From an uncultured Dehalococcoidia bacterium (GTDB taxonomy: Bacteria > Chloroflexota > Dehalococcoidia > Bin125): DNA of 64,000 nt. Below, in pieces: positions 9,643 to 59,458 of this stretch. How positions within the stretch are numbered: the stretch's first letter is position 1; the number at the start of each line of letters is the position of its first letter. Both the position numbers and the translations under genes were made by a program. The stretch is taken from contig CATQGW010000001.1 of assembly GCA_958295515.1 (NCBI GenBank), forward strand, positions 1,070,658-1,134,657, given 5' to 3'. Below the pieces are notes generated by a model. It saw only the letters and a list, made by a program, of their open reading frames with translations, searched no databases and was not told the DNA's origin.

Positions 9643-10503
<861 letters not shown>

Positions 10504-10725
10504 TTAGCCGCCTTGTTTCGCGCCGATGATGTCGAGCTGGTCGCCCGCGCCGACGCGGACCGCGTCCCACTCGCTGCGGGGCACGACCGCGAGGTTGACG
10601 GCGACCGCGATGCCCTGCTGCTCGGGGTCGTAGCCGATTTCGCAGAGCGCGTCGCGCAGCGGCGCAGGCGTCAAGCGCTGCGGCTCGCCGTTGACGGTGA
10701 CTTCGATGGCCGCGTTCTCGCTCAT
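10504..10725 (-). CDS. thiS: Sulfur carrier protein ThiS
   Basis: MSENAAIEVTVNGEPQRL...AVAVNLAVVPRSEWDAVRVGAGDQLDIIGAKQGG with C-terminal GG; starts inside the longer ORF 10504..11208. Confidence 0.92.
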   Translation of the reverse strand: MSENAAIEVTVNGEPQRLTPAPLRDALCEIGYDPEQQGIAVAVNLAVVPRSEWDAVRVGAGDQLDIIGAKQGG

Positions 10726-11852
10726 CCTGCTCCTGCCAATCTCGACGCCTGGAGTTGCGCGAGCAGCGGCGGCGTCTCGCCGCCCTCGATCGCTTCCGCC
10801 AGCCAGTAGGCGGTGGCGGGCGCGAGCAGGATGCCGTTGCGGTAGTGCCCGGTCGCGAGGAAGACTCCCGGCGCGCCGGCGGGGCCGATCACGGGCAGGT
10901 GGTCGCGGACTGCCGGGCGGAAGCCGACGCTGATCTCGTCGAGGTGCAGGTCGTAGATGCCGGGCAGCACCTCCCAGGCATCGCGCAGCAGGTCGAAGAC
11001 CGCGCCGGCGGTGGGTTGGGCGTCGAAGCCCTGCTCCTCCTCGCTCGCGCCGACGATCAGCTCGCCGTCGCTGCGCGGCACCAGGTAGACATCGGGGGTG
11101 CGCACGACGCGCTGGATGATCGGTTCGCCGCGCAGCCGCAGCAGTTGCCCTTTGACGGGGCGCAAGCCGAGCGGCGGCGCGGGCGTGTCGATGCCGTCTT
11201 CGCTCCATACGCCGGCCGCGATCACCGCGATGTCCGCCCGCAGCTCGCCCGACTCGCCGGGTGTGTCATACGCGATCCGCACGCCGCCGGCTTCAGGAAA
11301 TACGCCGCTCACGCGGGTGCGGCGGCGCAGATCGACGCCGCGGTGTTCGACCGCCAGCGCGAGCGCGGGGAGCAGGCGGCGCGGATCGATCTGGTGGTCG
11401 CCGTCAACGAGCAATCCGCCGACGGCGCGGGGGACGACGTAGGGTTCGAGCCGCCGCGCCTCTCGCGCGGTGACCATCCGCGAGGTCAGGCCGCGCTCGC
11501 GCTGGAGCGCGGCGAGGTGTTCGAGCTCGAGCTCATCGTCGCGGTGGCGCGCAACCCAGAGCGTGCCCTCGCTGCGGTAGCCGCAGCCGAGGCCGCTCAA
11601 TTCGGAGACGGCGGCGGTGAACTCCGGGTAGCGGCACAGGCTGTCGAGCTGAAAGTTGAGCAGCGAGGCGGCGTTGCCCTCGGACTCGGAGGTGGGCGCG
11701 AGCATCCCGGCGGCGACGGCGCTGGCCTCCGCGCCCGGCTCGCCGCGTTCGAGCAGCGTGACGCGGCGTCCGCGCCCGGCCAACTCGAAGGCGATCGACA
11801 GTCCAATTGCGCCGCCGCCGATCACCACCACCTCGGTGCGTTCGCCGGTCAT
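10722..11852 (-). CDS. thiO: Glycine oxidase ThiO
   Basis: N-terminal VVVIGGGAIGLSIAFELAGRG FAD motif; C-terminal ATGHYRNGILLAPATA typical of ThiO. Confidence 0.92.
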   Translation of the reverse strand: MTGERTEVVVIGGGAIGLSIAFELAGRGRRVTLLERGEPGAEASAVAAGMLAPTSESEGNAASLLNFQLDSLCRYPEFTAAVSELSGLGCGYRSEGTLWVARHRDDELELEHLAALQRERGLTSRMVTAREARRLEPYVVPRAVGGLLVDGDHQIDPRRLLPALALAVEHRGVDLRRRTRVSGVFPEAGGVRIAYDTPGESGELRADIAVIAAGVWSEDGIDTPAPPLGLRPVKGQLLRLRGEPIIQRVVRTPDVYLVPRSDGELIVGASEEEQGFDAQPTAGAVFDLLRDAWEVLPGIYDLHLDEISVGFRPAVRDHLPVIGPAGAPGVFLATGHYRNGILLAPATAYWLAEAIEGGETPPLLAQLQASRLAGAG

Positions 11853-12505
11853 GCGAGCGCCCGATCGATGGCCTCGCGGATGCGTGCGGTCGCCGCTTCG
11901 GGATCATCGGCGCAGACGACGGCGGAGAGCACCGCGACGCCGTATGCGCCGGTTTCGAACACGGAGGCGAGGTTGTCGGCGGTGATTGAGCCGATCGCGA
12001 TGATCGGGGTATCGACGGCCTCGACGATCTCGCGCAGGCGCTCCAGCCCGAGCATCGGCGCGGCGCGGTCGCCCTTGGAGGTGGTGCCGAAGACGGGGCC
12101 GACGCCGAGGTAGTCGACGGGCTGGGCGGCGACGCGGCGCGCTTCTTCGACGCTGTTGGCGGTGCCGCCGACCAGCGTGCCGCCGCCGAGCAGACGGCGG
12201 GCGACATCGGGCGGCAGGTCGTCGCGCCCCAGATGGAGCGCGCAGCCGAGCGCGGCGGCGACATCGGCGCGGTCATCGATCAGCAGCGTCGTCGGGGCGT
12301 CGCCGACGGCGGCGCGCATGGCTTCGGCGGTTTCGATCAATTCGCGCGTCGTGCGCGGGCGCTTCTCGCGGAATTGCACGACATCCGCGCCGCCCTGCGC
12401 CGCGAATCCCGCCAGTTGGGTGTGGGAGAAGCGCGATTGCAGCTGCTCGTCGGTGATCACGTGCAGGCGTCCGATCTTGGTCATAGCGGACCCCATCCGA
12501 ACCAC
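11849..12505 (-). CDS. thiE: Thiamine phosphate synthase
   Basis: VVQFREKRPRTT...LLIDDRADVAAALGCALHLGRDDL...YLGVGPVFGTTSK...AIGSI. Confidence 0.92.
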   Translation of the reverse strand: MVRMGSAMTKIGRLHVITDEQLQSRFSHTQLAGFAAQGGADVVQFREKRPRTTRELIETAEAMRAAVGDAPTTLLIDDRADVAAALGCALHLGRDDLPPDVARRLLGGGTLVGGTANSVEEARRVAAQPVDYLGVGPVFGTTSKGDRAAPMLGLERLREIVEAVDTPIIAIGSITADNLASVFETGAYGVAVLSAVVCADDPEAATARIREAIDRALA

Positions 12506-13305
12506 TCACGGTCCCAGAAGGGGCTGGTGGGGCCCACGCCGTGGCCGAGCGGACGCGCGTAGCGGACCGCCTCGGTCAGCCAGAGCTTGGCGCTTCCCAC
12601 CGCGCCGCTCAGGTCGTCCTTGTCGTAGTGGAAGTCGTGGTTGAGCCGCGCGGCGATCGCGGAGGCGTAGGTGCAGCCGGTGCCGTGCGTGTGCCTGGTC
12701 TCGATCCATTCGCCCTCGAAGAGCTCGACGCCGTCCTTGCCGACCAGCAGATCGGTGGCGGGCGCTTCTTCGAGGTGTCCGCCCTTGACCAGCACGGCCG
12801 CCGCGCCGCGCTCGCGGAGCGCCTGCGCGGCGCGGCGGGCGTCCTCAAGCGTGCGCACGGTGAGGCCGGTCAGCACTTCGGCTTCGTGAACGTTGGGGGT
12901 GAGCAGGTCGGCGAGCGGGAGCATCTGCTCGGCGAAGGTCTGGACTGCGGCTTCGGCCAGCAGCGGGAAGCCCGTCTTGGAGATCATCACCGGATCCACC
13001 ACGATCCAGCGCGGGCGGCGCGCGCGCAGTTCGTCGGCGACCGTGCGGATCATCTCCGAGTCGCCGAGCATCCCGGTCTTGACCACGCCCACATCGAGGT
13101 CGTCGAAGACGGAGGCGATCTGGGCGCGGACGATCTCGGTCGGGAGCTGGTAGGCGGACTGAACGCCGAGCGTGTTCTGGGCGGTGATTGCGGTGATCAC
13201 GGTCGCGGCGTGGCAGCCGTAGTGGGCGGCGGCAGCCTTGAGGTCGGCCTGGATGCCCGCGCCCGCGGAGGAGTCGGAGCCGGCGATGCTGCAAATCACG
13301 CGCAC
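12481..13305 (-). CDS. thiD: Hydroxymethylpyrimidine / HMP-P kinase
   Basis: SIAGSDSSAGAGIQADLKAAAAHYGCHAATVITAITAQNT...DPVMISKTG...HGTGCTYASAIAA. Confidence 0.95.
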   Translation of the reverse strand: MRVICSIAGSDSSAGAGIQADLKAAAAHYGCHAATVITAITAQNTLGVQSAYQLPTEIVRAQIASVFDDLDVGVVKTGMLGDSEMIRTVADELRARRPRWIVVDPVMISKTGFPLLAEAAVQTFAEQMLPLADLLTPNVHEAEVLTGLTVRTLEDARRAAQALRERGAAAVLVKGGHLEEAPATDLLVGKDGVELFEGEWIETRHTHGTGCTYASAIAARLNHDFHYDKDDLSGAVGSAKLWLTEAVRYARPLGHGVGPTSPFWDREWFGWGPL

Positions 13306-13357
13306 GGCGCACCTCGGGCAGGCCGGAGGCGGTGCGCTGGTACGGGGGGCGAGCCTG

Positions 13358-13440
13358 GTGCGCTCCCTGCGCCGGCATTACCCGGATCAGGTTCAGCGGG
13401 TGTGTTCTCAGGCCCGCCGTCGCGGACCACCCCGGCTGCT
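13358..13440 (-). promoter_or_regulatory. TPP riboswitch (THI element) upstream of thiD
   Basis: Reverse complement: GCCGGGGTGGTCCGCGACGGCGGGCCTGAGAACACACCCGCTGAACCTGATCCGGGTAATGCCGGCGCAGGGAGCG; conserved CTGAGA, CTGAACCTGATC and GTAATGCCGGCGCAGGGA blocks. Confidence 0.95.
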
Positions 13441-13496
13441 CAACGCGACGAGATTAGCACAAGCGGCTGGCTGGAGATCGGGCGGACCTCCGGGCG

Positions 13497-17710: not shown

Positions 17711-18061
17711 TTAGTGCTTCCAGAGCGGGCTGGCGACGTTGATATCGACCTGGGCGGCGGACTCGGCGTCGCAGACGGCGCGGATCGTGACGGTCTGGGT
17801 GGCTTCCGCTTCGGGCGAAGAGCGGGGGTGCTGCTCGGGGTACCAGTTGACCTCGGCGATGCCCCACTCGTCGGAGTCGACGGTGCGCTGCGTGCCGCCG
17901 CTGCTGGCCAGCGTGCCGGGGCCCTCCTCGATGGTGAAGACCACGGGCGCGCCGGCCAGCGAGCCTTCGCGGCTGCTGATCGAGGCGGAGATCATCCGAT
18001 AGCCGACTTCGCCGCGGTCCGCCATCCGCACGCTGACCTCAATGGTGTCCTCGGGCATCAA
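17711..18061 (-). CDS. Hypothetical protein, possible Ig-like fold
   Basis: VVFTIEEGPGTLASSGGTQRTVDSDEWGIAEVNWYP resembles Big-type Ig domains. Confidence 0.5.
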   Translation of the reverse strand: MMPEDTIEVSVRMADRGEVGYRMISASISSREGSLAGAPVVFTIEEGPGTLASSGGTQRTVDSDEWGIAEVNWYPEQHPRSSPEAEATQTVTIRAVCDAESAAQVDINVASPLWKH

Positions 18062-18144: not shown

Positions 18145-19392
18145 ATGGTCCGACTCGACGATCTGCACCCCAACATGGCCGCGAATCTGCTCGCGCTGGA
18201 GCTGCCTCAGATTGAGCCGGCGGACTGGATTACGCCGCCGCCGCTGGCGGAGGCGACGGTGGCGCTGGTGACCACGGCCGGGCTGGCGCGGCGCGACGAC
18301 CGCCGCTTCACGCCCGGCGCGGTCGAGTACCGGCTGATCCCCGGCGACACGGACCCGGCGGACTTGCAGATGTCGCACTTCAGCGTGAACTTCGACCGCT
18401 CGGCGTTCCAGCAGGACTACAACGTGGCATTCCCGATTGATCGGCTGCGCGAGCTGGTTGAGGCCGGGGAGGTCGGCGCGGTTGCGCCGCACCATTACTC
18501 GTTCATGGGCGCGCTGCCCGACGCGACACGGCTGGAGCAGACCGGCGAAGAAGTCGGGCGACTGCTCAAGGAGGCGGGCGTCGACGCGGCGTTTCTGACA
18601 CCCGTTTGACCGTTCTGCACGCGCGCCGTGGGCGCGCTGTCGCACTACATCGAGCGGGCCGGGGTGGCCACGACGGGCGTCAGCCTGATCCGCGAGCACG
18701 TGGCGGGGATGACCGTCCCGCGTTCGCTCTGGGTGCCGTTCCCGCTCGGTCGCCCGATGGGGCCGGCCGATGACGCGGACTTCCAGCGCGATGTGCTGCG
18801 CTCCGGACTGGCACTGCTCAATTCGGCGACCGAGCCGACTGTCGCCGACTACGCGCACGACGCGCCGATGGGCGATCCGGCCGGCGAGTGGGCATGCGCC
18901 ATCGCGCTGCCCCAGCCGGAGCCGATCGACGACGCCGACGCGCTGGTGCAAGCGCTGCTTGACGAGGTGCGCGCGCTCGCACCCTGGTACGACGAGGGGC
19001 GGCGCAAGCGCGGCCGCAGCGCGGTCGGCGCGAGCGGCGTGGGCGCGGATCAGATCGAGCTGATGGCCGGCGAGCTGGTGCGTTTCGCCACCGGCACCGA
19101 GCAGGAGCCGAACGGCGAGGAGCCCAACTGGGCGCACGACCGGCCGGCGCGCTACAAGTACATCACCGACGATCTGCGCGCGTTCTACCACGAGGCGATG
19201 CTCGCGCAGCCCGGTTCGCAGCCGCGCGGCGACGCGGACCTGCACGGCTGGGTGTTCGGCCAGACGCAGCTCGGCGAGGTGATCCGGATGGCCGCCGATC
19301 GGGTGCAGGAGATGGGCGACCGACGGCTCGCGCCGCTGATCATCGGCCTCATCCCCGCCGGCTACCGCAGCCGCACGCTGCGCACCTGGTAG
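18145..19392 (+). CDS. Glycine/betaine/sarcosine/D-proline reductase selenoprotein B family; in-frame UGA (18607-18609) predicted Sec
   Basis: ORFs 18145..18609 and 18628..19392 share a frame and are separated only by TGA plus six sense codons: ...AAFLTPV-U-PFCTRAVGALSHYIERAGVATTGVSLIREHV... Confidence 0.78.
18610..18640 (+). promoter_or_regulatory. Putative bacterial SECIS hairpin
   Basis: GCGCGCC (18621-18627) - GUG loop (18628-18630) - GGCGCGC (18631-18637): perfect 7-bp stem, loop starting with G, 18 nt after the UGA. Confidence 0.6.
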
Positions 19393-19419: not shown

Positions 19420-21024
19420 TTAAGCGCCGCGAGTGGGGCGCAGGGGGTCCCGTTCGTCCCAGCTGAGGGTGAACTCGACGCCCGCCGTTGCCAGATCGCC
19501 GCTCAAATCCTCGCCCGACGGCGTAACACCGTCTCCCAGCCAAAGCACGAAGGCGGAGAGGGCGGCAGCCAGCTCGAGCGGCGCGAAGGTGCAGTGGCCG
19601 GCGCGGCGAATGGCGCGGACGGCGAGGTTGCGGCCGTAGCCGGCGTCGTTCACAAGACGCTGGTAATCGCGATCCAGGTGGATCGGCGTGAAGAGGTCGC
19701 CCGTCGTTTTCAGGCAGAGCAGCGGAACCTCGAGGCGTCCACTCGGCACGCCCACGCCGGGATCGGCGCGTCGAGCCGCCGGCGATGCCACACGCGCGAC
19801 TTCCGTGTTGAGGCGCTCAAGATCCAGATCGACGCCCTCGGCGGCGTAGACGAACGCGGTCGTGTCCATCGGGATGGCGGCGGGCCCGAGCTCGATTTGC
19901 TCACCGGGAGCGAAGGGAGCGGCGGCGATCAGACTCGGCCAGACCAGCGCGCCGACCGCGAAGGAGGTGTCCCACTGCTCCGCAAAACCCTCGCGGAAAC
20001 CCCAACGCGGACCGCCGCTGAGCTGCTCGATCACGGCGGCGAACTGCTCGCCCGCCTCGCTCAGTTGTAGTTGTCCGGCGGCGTCGGTGTAGCCCAGCGG
20101 ACGCGCCCACTCGACCAGGCCGAGCGCGTCGCTGCGGGTTGGCGGCTCGCCAATGAACCAGAGCGCGAGCGTGTGCCAGGCGGCCAGATAGTCGGTCACC
20201 CAAACGTTGCCGAGCGCGCCGCAGAAGGCGATTGCGCCATCGATCTCGTCAGGGAATTCCTGCGCCATCAGTTGCGCGGTCGCGCCGCCCATCGAGCCGC
20301 CGATGCAGAATGTGCGGCGCGGCGCGCCGTAAAGCTCCGCGGCGCGATCCTTGACCAGCAGGAGATCGTCGACGCCAAGCCCCGGCACATAGCCGGGCGC
20401 GCGGTAGGTGCTGGTCGCCCAGGCCGTGCCGCCGGCCAGCAGCAGCTCGCGATCAGGCATTTCGAAGCTCAGCGTCTCGCTGGGACCGTCGCCCGCATCG
20501 TTCAAGCCGGTGAAGCCGTGCGCCCAGAGCACGAGGTCGCCGTTCCAGTCATCCGGCGCCTCGATGCGGTAGCCCGCGCCCTCGATCACTCCCCATTCGG
20601 CGCTCGCGCCCGGCAGCGGCGCGAACTCAGGGTCTTCGAGCGCGCAGTCCGTGCATTCCAGATCGGGCACAAGCCTCCGCCGCGCGGGCGGCTGCGCATC
20701 CGCGGCTGGTTGCTCCGGTGGTTGCGCAGGCGCACTCTGTTGTTGCGCGCTGGGCGGTTCGGGCGGCGTCTGCGCTGGCGGCGTCTGCTGGGCATCGGCG
20801 GGAGGTGCGGGCTGCGGATCGGGTGCAGCGGGTTGAAGTTCTGCTTGTGTTTGAGTCTGTGCGGGCGGTTCGGGCGGCGCGCTGCGCCGGCGCGGAACCG
20901 CCTGCGGCGGTTCCGTTTCGTCGGCGCAGCCGACCAACAACGCCGCCGCGCCGCCGACGGCGCAGCGGGCGAAGCGCTGCAACAGCGCGCGGCGGCTCAG
21001 CGTTCGATTGGACAAACCCACCAC
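19420..21024 (-). CDS. Secreted alpha/beta-hydrolase lipoprotein with Pro/Gln-rich linker
   Basis: Lipobox-like LLVGCADE; PAPPADAQQTPPAQTPPEPP linker; LVLWAHGFTG and GGSMGG nucleophile elbow. Confidence 0.75.
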   Translation of the reverse strand: MVGLSNRTLSRRALLQRFARCAVGGAAALLVGCADETEPPQAVPRRRSAPPEPPAQTQTQAELQPAAPDPQPAPPADAQQTPPAQTPPEPPSAQQQSAPAQPPEQPAADAQPPARRRLVPDLECTDCALEDPEFAPLPGASAEWGVIEGAGYRIEAPDDWNGDLVLWAHGFTGLNDAGDGPSETLSFEMPDRELLLAGGTAWATSTYRAPGYVPGLGVDDLLLVKDRAAELYGAPRRTFCIGGSMGGATAQLMAQEFPDEIDGAIAFCGALGNVWVTDYLAAWHTLALWFIGEPPTRSDALGLVEWARPLGYTDAAGQLQLSEAGEQFAAVIEQLSGGPRWGFREGFAEQWDTSFAVGALVWPSLIAAAPFAPGEQIELGPAAIPMDTTAFVYAAEGVDLDLERLNTEVARVASPAARRADPGVGVPSGRLEVPLLCLKTTGDLFTPIHLDRDYQRLVNDAGYGRNLAVRAIRRAGHCTFAPLELAAALSAFVLWLGDGVTPSGEDLSGDLATAGVEFTLSWDERDPLRPTRGA

Positions 21025-55340: not shown

Positions 55341-56762
55341 ATGCTGCGGGGTGTCGTCTGCGGAGCAATTGCGCTGCTTGCGCTGGCCTGCGGCCTGGCG
55401 GCGCCCGCCGACACGGGCGCATCGCCCCGATCAGCGCCGCCCCCGTTCGAGTGGTGGGCCAACGGCAAGCCGCCCACACCCCCGCTGTATCTGGTGCTGG
55501 AGAGCTCCCGCGAGCTCTGCACGGCGGGCACCCTGACCGAGCTCTCCTGGACAATCAGCGGCGGAACCGCTCCCTACACGCTGACCATCGAGGGCTCCGC
55601 AGTCGACATCGACGCCGACAACATCCGCATCAACTGCGGCGCGCTGCCGTATGACCCGCGCACGGGTGAGCTGGCCGCCAGCCGAACGAAGACCTTCCGC
55701 GGCTCGCTCCGCGACAGCCGCGGCGTGACCACCACCACGACGGCGGCGGTGACGCTGACCACGCCGCCCTACCTGGCCGCCGATGCGGCGCTGCGCTACG
55801 AAACCTACGACCTCACAGGCGCGGCGGCGGGCGCAGGCAGCTACGCCTTCCTCACCGACACGACCGGCGCGGCGAGCGTGGTTCCGACCTACGAAGGCCT
55901 GCGCGACGGCACGGCGAAGCTGCTGCTGATCCACACCTCCGACGCGGAAGAGACGCCGCAACGCTCGCTCTACGACGCTGTGGTGGCGGGCGACCTGTTC
56001 GAGTGGCACGAGTCCTACGATTGTTGGGTGCGCTATCGAGTAACCGAAGTCCGGCCCGATCCGCCGGGCGGCGCGGCGCGCAAACTGCTCGGCGTGGAGC
56101 GGTTAAGCTACGCCTATAGCGGTTGCAGCGGCGCGATCGCTACAGACGTCGCCGTCCTGCTCGCCTGGGGTCCGCTGCCCGATCTGGGCGGCCCGAGTCT
56201 CGCCGCGCCGCTGCGTCACGGGCCGTATCAGCTCGTCCCTACAAGCTGGCGCGGCATGGCGGAGGAGCCCAGAAGCTATCTCCCTTCAGCTTACTCCGCT
56301 ACCAATCCGACCTACACGAGCGACCTCGCTGCGGCGCAACGGCTTCCCTACTGGCGCGATCCCGATCTGCCGGCGGGCTGGACATTCGCATGGGCAACCG
56401 CCGGCGACGTGAGCGGTCCCACCTATGGCTACTGGGCGGTGTTCGCCTCAGAACGAGGCGGGTACGGCGTCACGATCGAGGGTTACTACGCGGACTACAG
56501 GGGCCACCCGGAGGAGTCGTCGTGGCTAAATGCTCGCGGTGCCCTCGAGACGCGGATCATTGCGGGGCGCCCAGCAACAGTTGCGTATAGCCCGCCAGGA
56601 CCGAGCCACGATGACCTGTCCGCGGTGACCGTCTGGATCTATGACTCGTCAACTGAGGCTGAGTACATGATCCTCGGAGAGGTCAAGAACCTGCGCGGAA
56701 GCAACGTCGACGCCGCCATCGCGATCGCACGCAGCCTCTTCGAAGGAGCAGATGCGCCATGA
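55341..56762 (+). CDS. Secreted protein with repeated EWWxxGKPxxPPLYL...SRELCTAGTLTE module (copy 1)
   Basis: Signal peptide; near-identical to the C-terminal half of 56759..59458. Confidence 0.7.
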   Translation: MLRGVVCGAIALLALACGLAAPADTGASPRSAPPPFEWWANGKPPTPPLYLVLESSRELCTAGTLTELSWTISGGTAPYTLTIEGSAVDIDADNIRINCGALPYDPRTGELAASRTKTFRGSLRDSRGVTTTTTAAVTLTTPPYLAADAALRYETYDLTGAAAGAGSYAFLTDTTGAASVVPTYEGLRDGTAKLLLIHTSDAEETPQRSLYDAVVAGDLFEWHESYDCWVRYRVTEVRPDPPGGAARKLLGVERLSYAYSGCSGAIATDVAVLLAWGPLPDLGGPSLAAPLRHGPYQLVPTSWRGMAEEPRSYLPSAYSATNPTYTSDLAAAQRLPYWRDPDLPAGWTFAWATAGDVSGPTYGYWAVFASERGGYGVTIEGYYADYRGHPEESSWLNARGALETRIIAGRPATVAYSPPGPSHDDLSAVTVWIYDSSTEAEYMILGEVKNLRGSNVDAAIAIARSLFEGADAP

Positions 56763-59458
56763 CGAAATCGCGCTCAGCTCCGGCCATCAGACTTGCGGCG
56801 CTGCTGCTGGCGCTGGCGGCGGGGCTGCTCTGGGCGGCGGGCGGAGCGTCGGCCAGAGGGCCGATCGAGTGGTGGGCAGATGGCAAACCAGCTACACCCC
56901 CGCTATACCTCAAGCTGACCAGCTCCCGCGAGCTCTGCACCGCCGGCACCCTGACCGAGGTCTCCTGGCGGATCAGCGGCGGCGCGCCGCCGTACTCGCT
57001 GAGTGTTGAGGGATCGGCTGTCGACATCAGCGCCGATAACCTGCGGATCAACTGTGGCGCGTTGACCCCCACGGAGGCCGCCGACGCGGAGGCAACACTC
57101 GCCGCCAAGACAATCACGGCCACCGTCACCGACGCCAGAGGCGTGCGGAGTGCGGCGTCGCTCGATGTGGCGCGGGCACGGGCGCTGCCTGCGCCGACGG
57201 GGCTCAGCTACAGCCCAGCGACGGGCTGGGCAAGGACCTTCTGGGACTGGGTCGACGGAGCGGGTTCGCAGTCGCCTGAGCGTCCCAGGTACCCCGACTA
57301 CCCAGATTCGCCGCCCGTGCGAGACCAATATCTCGTGCGCTATCGAGCAACCGGCGGTACCGAGTGGCGACATGCTGTGTGGGCCACAAACAGCGGCCCA
57401 AACGAATGGGAGACGGCGGGCCCGGGCATTCACGAGATGCAGGTCGCCGCGATCCGCCATTCGCTCGAGGCGGAGACACCGGCGGCGCTGCGCTGGAGCG
57501 AGACGTTGCGTTATGTGTACGCGACCGCTCCTGCGAACGCCACCGTCTCGACAACCGCGACCACGGTCACCGTATCGTGGGACGCGCAACCATACGCTGG
57601 CATCACTGTCGTCACGCTGCAAGGACCAAGCGGCTACCGGGACCGGCTGGTAGACGAGCCGAGCGAGCCGGGCCGCGATACTATCACGTTCTCCGATGTG
57701 CCACCCGAAACGTCTTACGAGGTCGTGATCGACAAGGGCTCGCCTGACGGGATTGTCAGCGGGCGGACCGAGCTCACCGCGCGGACCGGCGCGGCGCCGG
57801 CAGGCTGGGAGGCGAACCCCACCGGGCCGCAAAACGTGACGGTCGCCACCAACGGGAACGAGATCACCGTGACGTGGGTGGAGCCGTATGCCGGCGCCGC
57901 GAACAGGTACGACGTGGCGATCACCGAGGAGCGCACGGGCGCTCTGGTCGACATCACTTGGGTGGCAGACTCGACACGACAGTGGTCAACCCGGGGCATC
58001 TTCCGGCCGATCAGGCGCAGGGGGGCGTATCGGGTGCGCGTGACGCACGTTGATCTGATCACGGCGTCGGTCTACAAAACCGTGACCGTGCCGGCATCGA
58101 CGCCGAGCGGCGTCCAAGAGGCCCAATCCTCAGAACCGCCTAGCCCGGCGATCGAGTGGTGGGCGGACGGGAGGCCGGCATTCCCACCGCTGTATCTGGC
58201 GCTGGAGAGCTCGCGCGAGCTCTGCACGGCGGGCACCCTGACGGAGGTTTCGTGGAAGATCAGTGGCGGAACTGCTCCCTACACGCTGAGCGTAGAGGGA
58301 GAAACTGTGGATGTGGACGCGGACAACATCCACATCAACTGCGGCGCGCTGCCGCATGACCTGCGCACGGGCGAGCTGGCCGCCAGCCGGACGAAGACCT
58401 TCCGCGGCTCGCTCCGCGACAGCCGCGGCGTCACCACCACCGCGACAGCGCCGGTGACGCTGACCACGCCGCCCTACCTGGCCGCCGATACGGCGCTGCG
58501 CTACGAAACCTACGACCTCACAGGCGCGGCGGCGAGCGCAGGCAGCTACGCCTTCCTTACCAGCGCGGCGAGCGTGGTTACGACCTACGAAGGCCTGCGC
58601 GACGGCACAGCGAAGCAGTTGCTGGTCCACACCTCCGACGCGCAGGGAGTGTCGCGCGCCGCGCTCTACGCCGCAGTCGCGGCGGGCGACCTGTTCGAGT
58701 GGCGCGAGTCCTACGATTGCTGGGTGCGCTATCGAGTAACCGACATCCGGCCCGACCCGTCGGTCGCCGCGGCGCACAAACTGCTCGCCGTGGAGTGGAC
58801 GACCTACGCTTTCACGGGCTGCAGCGGCGCGATCGTTGCGGACGCCGCAGTCCTGATCGCCTGGGGTCCGCTGCCCGATCTGGGCGGCCCCAGTCTCGCC
58901 GCACCGCTGCGTCATGGGCCGTATCAGATCGTCCCTACAGGCTGGCGCGGCGTGACGGAGGAGCCCAGAAGCTATCTTCCTTCAGCTTACTCCGCTACCA
59001 ATCCGACCTACACGCGGGACCTCGCTGCGGCGCGACGGCTTCCCTACTGGCGCGATCCCGATCTGCCGGCGGGCTGGACATTCGCATGGGCAACCGCCGG
59101 CGACGTGAGCGGTCCCACCTATGGGTACTGGGCAACGTTCGCTACAGAGCGAGGCGGGCACGGCGTCACAATCTTCGGTTACTACGCGGACTATCGGGGC
59201 CACCCGGAAGAGTCGTCGTGGCGAAACGCTCGAGGCGTCTTCGAAACACGGACCATCGCGGGACGTCCAGCGAAGGTCATGTACAGCCCGCCAGGACCGA
59301 GCCACGACGACTGGTTCCCGGTGACCGTCTGGGTTTATGACTCGTCGACGGAGGCTGAATACATGATCCTCGGAAAAGTCAAGAGCCTGCGCGGCGATAA
59401 CGTCGACGCCGTCATCGCGATCGCGCGGAGTCTGTTTGAGGAGACAGATGCGCCATGA
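56759..59458 (+). CDS. Secreted protein with two copies of the module and Fn3-like domains
   Basis: ATGA overlap with upstream gene; modules at ~56865 and ~58150; TVSTTATTVTVSWDAQPYAGIT-type Fn3 strands between. Confidence 0.7.
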   Translation: MTKSRSAPAIRLAALLLALAAGLLWAAGGASARGPIEWWADGKPATPPLYLKLTSSRELCTAGTLTEVSWRISGGAPPYSLSVEGSAVDISADNLRINCGALTPTEAADAEATLAAKTITATVTDARGVRSAASLDVARARALPAPTGLSYSPATGWARTFWDWVDGAGSQSPERPRYPDYPDSPPVRDQYLVRYRATGGTEWRHAVWATNSGPNEWETAGPGIHEMQVAAIRHSLEAETPAALRWSETLRYVYATAPANATVSTTATTVTVSWDAQPYAGITVVTLQGPSGYRDRLVDEPSEPGRDTITFSDVPPETSYEVVIDKGSPDGIVSGRTELTARTGAAPAGWEANPTGPQNVTVATNGNEITVTWVEPYAGAANRYDVAITEERTGALVDITWVADSTRQWSTRGIFRPIRRRGAYRVRVTHVDLITASVYKTVTVPASTPSGVQEAQSSEPPSPAIEWWADGRPAFPPLYLALESSRELCTAGTLTEVSWKISGGTAPYTLSVEGETVDVDADNIHINCGALPHDLRTGELAASRTKTFRGSLRDSRGVTTTATAPVTLTTPPYLAADTALRYETYDLTGAAASAGSYAFLTSAASVVTTYEGLRDGTAKQLLVHTSDAQGVSRAALYAAVAAGDLFEWRESYDCWVRYRVTDIRPDPSVAAAHKLLAVEWTTYAFTGCSGAIVADAAVLIAWGPLPDLGGPSLAAPLRHGPYQIVPTGWRGVTEEPRSYLPSAYSATNPTYTRDLAAARRLPYWRDPDLPAGWTFAWATAGDVSGPTYGYWATFATERGGHGVTIFGYYADYRGHPEESSWRNARGVFETRTIAGRPAKVMYSPPGPSHDDWFPVTVWVYDSSTEAEYMILGKVKSLRGDNVDAVIAIARSLFEETDAP

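Follow-up and report, generated by a model that had tools for sequence, protein, structure and literature searches.

Several of the described relatives of the gene reported here are parts of enzymes built from more than one subunit. PrdB, a single-domain protein of about 240 amino acids with a UGTC motif, is the catalytic selenocysteine (Sec) subunit of D-proline reductase, and GrdB, GrdH and GrdF belong to the glycine, betaine and sarcosine reductases. Fluoroacetate reductase (NF053623) has two components, FarB and FarE, encoded in a farACEB operon with a transporter and a radical SAM protein; for FarB, a GrdB-like protein that works with FarE, a homologue of pyruvoyl-type subunits, an attack by Sec on the C-F bond of fluoroacetate has been proposed (PMC10838667). 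Stand-alone marine 'PrdB' selenoproteins, relatives of PF07355 with a UxxC motif, have been counted in the Sargasso Sea (42 sequences; PMC1088965) and in the Global Ocean Sampling (GOS) data (235 Sec forms and 110 Cys forms; PMC2398784), and the available parts of these reports treat them as one family, Cys members included.

The window (the whole 64,000-nucleotide stretch of an uncultured Dehalococcoidia genome that was analysed) contains a relative of these proteins that differs in architecture. Its best explanation as a whole, held with high confidence, is a stand-alone Sec enzyme related to PrdB, with a fused helical domain and a proposed C-X bond chemistry. Stand-alone selenoproteins of the short PrdB-like kind have been on record since 2005; what is new is the fused, Sec-only clade, of which no account was found in the available parts of the Sargasso Sea and GOS reports (PMC1088965, PMC2398784) or in the portion of the other literature that was covered. 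Some of the GOS fragments may belong to it.

One reading frame across an in-frame UGA

The gene (18145..19392, plus strand; 415 amino acids, a single internal UGA and a TAG stop) had been described in the initial annotation as a probable selenoprotein split in two by the ORF caller, with Sec in a U-x-x-C context, and this description is supported. The frame of the first ORF (18145..18609) passes the TGA at 18607-18609 and stays open to the TAG at 19390-19392, placing U at residue 155 of 415 in the context ...AAFLTPV-U-PFCTRAVGAL..., with Cys158 (18616..18618, plus strand; invariant in A2), the Cys of UxxC, as the proposed resolving residue. TGA occupies this position within UxxC in all 126 distinct long-form sequences (300-440 amino acids as matched) when all searches are pooled, and Cys in none of them, so that Sec is kept without exception among the sequences sampled in the fused clade. 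Because 126 of 126 sequences agree, a sequencing error hiding TGC or TGG, the alternative raised at the outset, is excluded. Each of the 20 genomes in the window's family contains homologues, with TGA in every one whose site was read, and these align across it.

The 88 long-form copies that come from named records are distributed among Chloroflexota (46), Pseudomonadota (24), Actinomycetota (12) and Thermodesulfobacteriota (3), with three unplaced. The window protein alone matched nothing as a query against genome contigs; the alignment as query retrieved 235 relatives, 80 of them retained, and a plasmid search yielded short forms and true PrdBs only. Family members number up to five per genome, and a second long-form copy lies in the window's own genome at C1:55364-56596. 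Tandem duplicates of the long form are present in five other genomes (G015:C27, G006:C10, G001:C51, G010:C2 and G003:C10), each copy with its own UGA and hairpin. The apparent Cys codons of two sequences (TGC or TGT in L171 and L203) arose from reading the wrong position; both have TGA at the Sec site.

The hairpin downstream of the UGA (arms 18621-18627 and 18631-18637, loop GUG 18628-18630, plus strand) was correctly noticed from the start as a perfect 7-bp stem, GCGCGCC-GTG-GGCGCGC at 18621-18637, whose loop G at 18628 lies 18 nt after the UGA. Judged from the window by itself, it argues only weakly for a bacterial SECIS element: its fold z-score is -1.2, and it was not taken as proof because GC-rich synonymous codons drawn with the window's codon usage give all seven pairs in 4.3% of draws (P=0.043). 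Across the family its covariation is far beyond chance and exceeds what synonymous codon choice produces. Across 42 distinct sequences of the family, the paired cells amount to 82%, compared with 33-54% when the arms are slid as a control, and cells changed on both sides number 46 against 16.0±3.2 after shuffling (0 of 500 shuffles), figures that are not to be read as probabilities, given the kinship of the sequences. Over 90 distinct sequences the stem has on average 5.83 of seven pairs; redrawing synonymous codons 400 times according to the codon usage of the family gives 4.57±0.10 and never more than 4.83. In 90 of 90 the loop starts with G. Perfect stems of differing sequence exist, such as GGGTACC-GTC-GGTACCC and TCAGTCC-GTG-GGACTGA.

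That the UGA is a true stop, with the downstream half a separate protein or a decaying remnant, is exceedingly improbable. ORF callers do split the gene, a GTG start is available at 18628, and the assembly yielded no selD, a gene of Sec synthesis; against this stand the approximately 60% identity to the sister genus that is kept in both halves across the TGA, the invariance of TGA in the 126 sequences (never TAA, TAG or a sense codon), the covariation of the hairpin and the presence of selA, selB and selC. Sec and Cys also exchange at this site among short relatives: L105 (TGC) reads TAG-C-PLCHRTV where L107 reads TAG-U-PLCHRTV, and L207 and L208 likewise have Cys. The apparent mid-gene stop is therefore almost certainly read as Sec, so that the two predicted "genes" would be one enzyme; that the gene encodes a selenoprotein is, on this comparative evidence, very nearly beyond doubt. 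SelB and tRNA-Sec would decode UGA 18607-18609 as Sec155 under the direction of the downstream hairpin, yielding a single protein of 415 amino acids.

Selenium machinery of the host genome

The search for selA, selB, selC and selD suggested in the initial annotation succeeded for all but the last. The window's own genome (2.62 Mb in 6 contigs, about 94% complete) contains selA (516 bits), selB (349 bits) and the tRNA-Sec gene selC (71 bits, anticodon TCA). Of selD, on which Sec synthesis depends, this 94%-complete assembly showed no copy, the best candidates being weak matches of 24 and 19 bits, and it is present with an in-frame TGA in 18 of 19 genomes of the same family. More widely, all matches to selD above the cut-off among relatives (31 genomes, including L042-L045) are selenoproteins in their own right, each with a single in-frame TGA.

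A gene for a FAD oxidoreductase comes after selD in a sister genome, and it likewise was not found in the window's assembly; the otherwise continuous collinearity between the two genomes (G000:C5 about 273177-273740 and L114 9511-11879) ends exactly at this pair, with no run of N. The joint absence of two neighbouring genes at the end of synteny could mean that this species has lost selD, so that the UGA now terminates translation here and encodes Sec elsewhere. This is highly improbable, since the assembly is only about 94% complete in its 6 contigs and since selA, selB, tRNA-Sec, two selenoprotein paralogues and an intact SECIS element remain, where decay would be expected after such a loss. 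An assembly gap is the likelier cause of the absence of selD, because the other three components and two selenoprotein genes have been retained.

A PrdB-like domain fused to a helical domain

The N-terminal part of the protein (residues 28-235; 18226..18849, plus strand) is a predicted alpha/beta domain of the PrdB/GrdB type that holds Sec155, as judged from PF07355, TIGR04483 and an AlphaFold2 model (pLDDT 88 for the whole protein). The match to PF07355 (GRDB) is significant (E 1.5e-10, 41.4 bits against a gathering threshold of 22) and covers the C-terminal part of the profile only. The TIGR04483 (PrdB) score is 116.8 bits (E 1e-33), below the cut-off of 300, whereas the true PrdBs used as controls score 407 (L206) and 310 bits (L205). 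Models for GrdB also fall short (TIGR01917, 46.7 against 602; TIGR01918, 55.4 against 65.45). Homology to PrdB extends over residues 32-229, with Sec at about residue 150 and U-x-x-C in both, but the window protein is 415 amino acids long, has UPFC in place of UGTC, carries an extra C-terminal domain and lacks a PrdA partner; homology to GrdB, GrdH and GrdF is distant (residues 33-225). The protein is neither GrdB nor PrdB. Its earlier assignment to the GrdB/PrdB family thus stands for the homologous Sec domain, and gives way, for the protein as a whole, to a separate clade.

The C-terminal domain (residues 256-415; 18910..19389, plus strand) is modelled as helices throughout (pLDDT 90). Searched on its own, the second half of the gene has no Pfam match, and the domain has no significant match among Pfam or NCBIfam families, PDB sequences or PDB folds (E<=0.001; best 2.0). 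It contains invariant E, D and E residues and a DL..FY.EA motif. The whole-protein model matches no PDB entry at E<=0.001.

In a tree of the Sec domain alone, built by a quick method with SH-aLRT support and no bootstrap, a branch with SH-aLRT 98 separates all 50 long-form representatives from PrdB, the short Sec forms and the short Cys forms. The Cys forms annotated as 'Glycine/sarcosine/betaine reductase selenoprotein B family protein', for example in Haematobacter and Roseomonas, share the domain and are encoded by stand-alone genes, but they have CPxC, are about 300 amino acids long and fall outside the long-form clade on the tree. That proteins joining a PrdB-like Sec domain to an all-helical C-terminal domain make up a separate clade is thus very probable from sequence comparison.

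The gene had also been regarded as stand-alone and unconnected with Stickland fermentation, which agrees with the absence of matches to pyruvoyl-type partner subunits. PF09338, the family of GrdE-type pyruvoyl subunits, has no member in the window's own genome, the search having detected it in 8 of 301 Chloroflexota as a positive control, and PrdA had no match in 20 genomes of the window's family in a search run without a positive control.

Gene neighbourhood and the proposed reaction

The selenoprotein gene is a single-gene unit. Its upstream neighbour (17711..18061, minus strand; 116 amino acids, no Pfam match) is divergent, conserved in position in the sister genus, and shares no operon with it. 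The unit is closed downstream by a convergent gene (19420..21024, minus strand) for an alpha/beta-hydrolase-like protein with sub-threshold Pfam matches. Operon logic is thereby ruled out as a guide to function, and nothing comparable to farACEB surrounds the gene. The block around it reflects general collinearity with the sister genus and its genomes, and the position of the C1:55364 paralogue, upstream of recQ, gives no hint of function. Elsewhere in the window, ORFs resembling thiG, thiS, thiO, thiE and thiD by eye form a thiamine synthesis cluster (9643-13444, minus strand) downstream of a TPP riboswitch (13348-13444; Rfam 58.9 bits), and two adjacent, closely similar, secreted-looking proteins (55341-59458, plus strand) with the repeated module EWWA.GKP..PPLYL..ESSRELCTAGTLTE are apparently a tandem duplication.

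The reaction, the substrate and the reductant are extrapolated from the mechanism of GrdB and PrdB. By this analogy, a small substrate with a polarised C-X bond would be attacked at that bond by Sec155, as in GrdB; Cys158 would then resolve the selenium intermediate with formation of a Se-S bond, and thioredoxin would be the reductant of that bond. The helical domain may contribute the rest of the substrate site. As no pyruvoyl subunit was found, a Schiff-base-bound amine is an unlikely leaving group; the attack on C-F proposed for FarB (PMC10838667) makes a halogen a possible leaving group. Reductive C-X cleavage of some kind is a tentative assignment that falls somewhat short of an even chance, and against it counts that the homologous enzymes on which it is modelled act as complexes of several subunits.

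The main rival is a thiol-dependent redox protein, similar to a peroxidase or a disulfide reductase, in which UxxC would act in the manner of a thioredoxin motif and no C-X bond would be cleaved. The hosts are marine lineages, many of them probably aerobic, which fits such a role, as does the lack of a GrdE-type partner in the genome; two surveys give UxxC as the motif most often seen in redox selenoproteins (PMC1088965, PMC2398784). The fold, however, is that of PrdB and GrdB, the match of the model to thioredoxin is not significant, and the conserved residues sit in the PrdB-like domain. A thiol-redox function is accordingly possible without being probable.

Genes similar to type-II haloacid dehalogenases directly adjoin the long form in three unrelated lineages: a Desulfobulbaceae clade (L187 4170-4898, L189 1563-2276, L197 3580-4254 and L198 4270-4974), betaproteobacteria (L195 6264-6956 and L202 3542-3844) and one Chloroflexota genome (L093 2763-3440). 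TIGR01428 was run on L187, L195 and L198, all of which exceed its cut-off, and the remainder were assigned by similarity to these. The neighbours might point, speculatively, to halogenated substrates, and with the FarB precedent they would suit a reductive dehalogenase or C-X reductase that acts on small haloacids without a pyruvoyl subunit, in one pathway with the type-II haloacid dehalogenases. This proposal is rather unlikely: the adjacency concerns about 7 of some 90 loci and neither the window nor its family, and FarB itself works with FarE. No neighbour is universal across the named long-form loci. Because the adjacency was noticed after many families had been viewed, so that its significance is uncorrected, it serves as a lead only.

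The long-form clade could be imagined as a self-contained Sec-dependent C-X (possibly C-halogen) reductase in which the helical domain replaces the pyruvoyl subunit, serving dehalogenation or detoxification in aerobic marine and sponge-associated bacteria, although a proposal of such detail is decidedly unlikely to be correct as a whole. As none of the clade members tested reaches the cut-off of any NCBIfam model, standard annotation likely cuts these proteins at the UGA, and the second half of the long-form genes goes without a Pfam match. Among the genomes sampled the clade spans four phyla (Chloroflexota, Actinomycetota, Pseudomonadota and Thermodesulfobacteriota), and this breadth, the multiple members per genome and the lack of any Cys variant found suggest that the reaction needs selenium. 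The C-terminal domain is a candidate for characterisation, and the clade offers a defined target for GrdB/PrdB-type Sec chemistry outside amino-acid fermentation; it would represent an overlooked branch of selenium-dependent reductases that carries an extra C-terminal domain.
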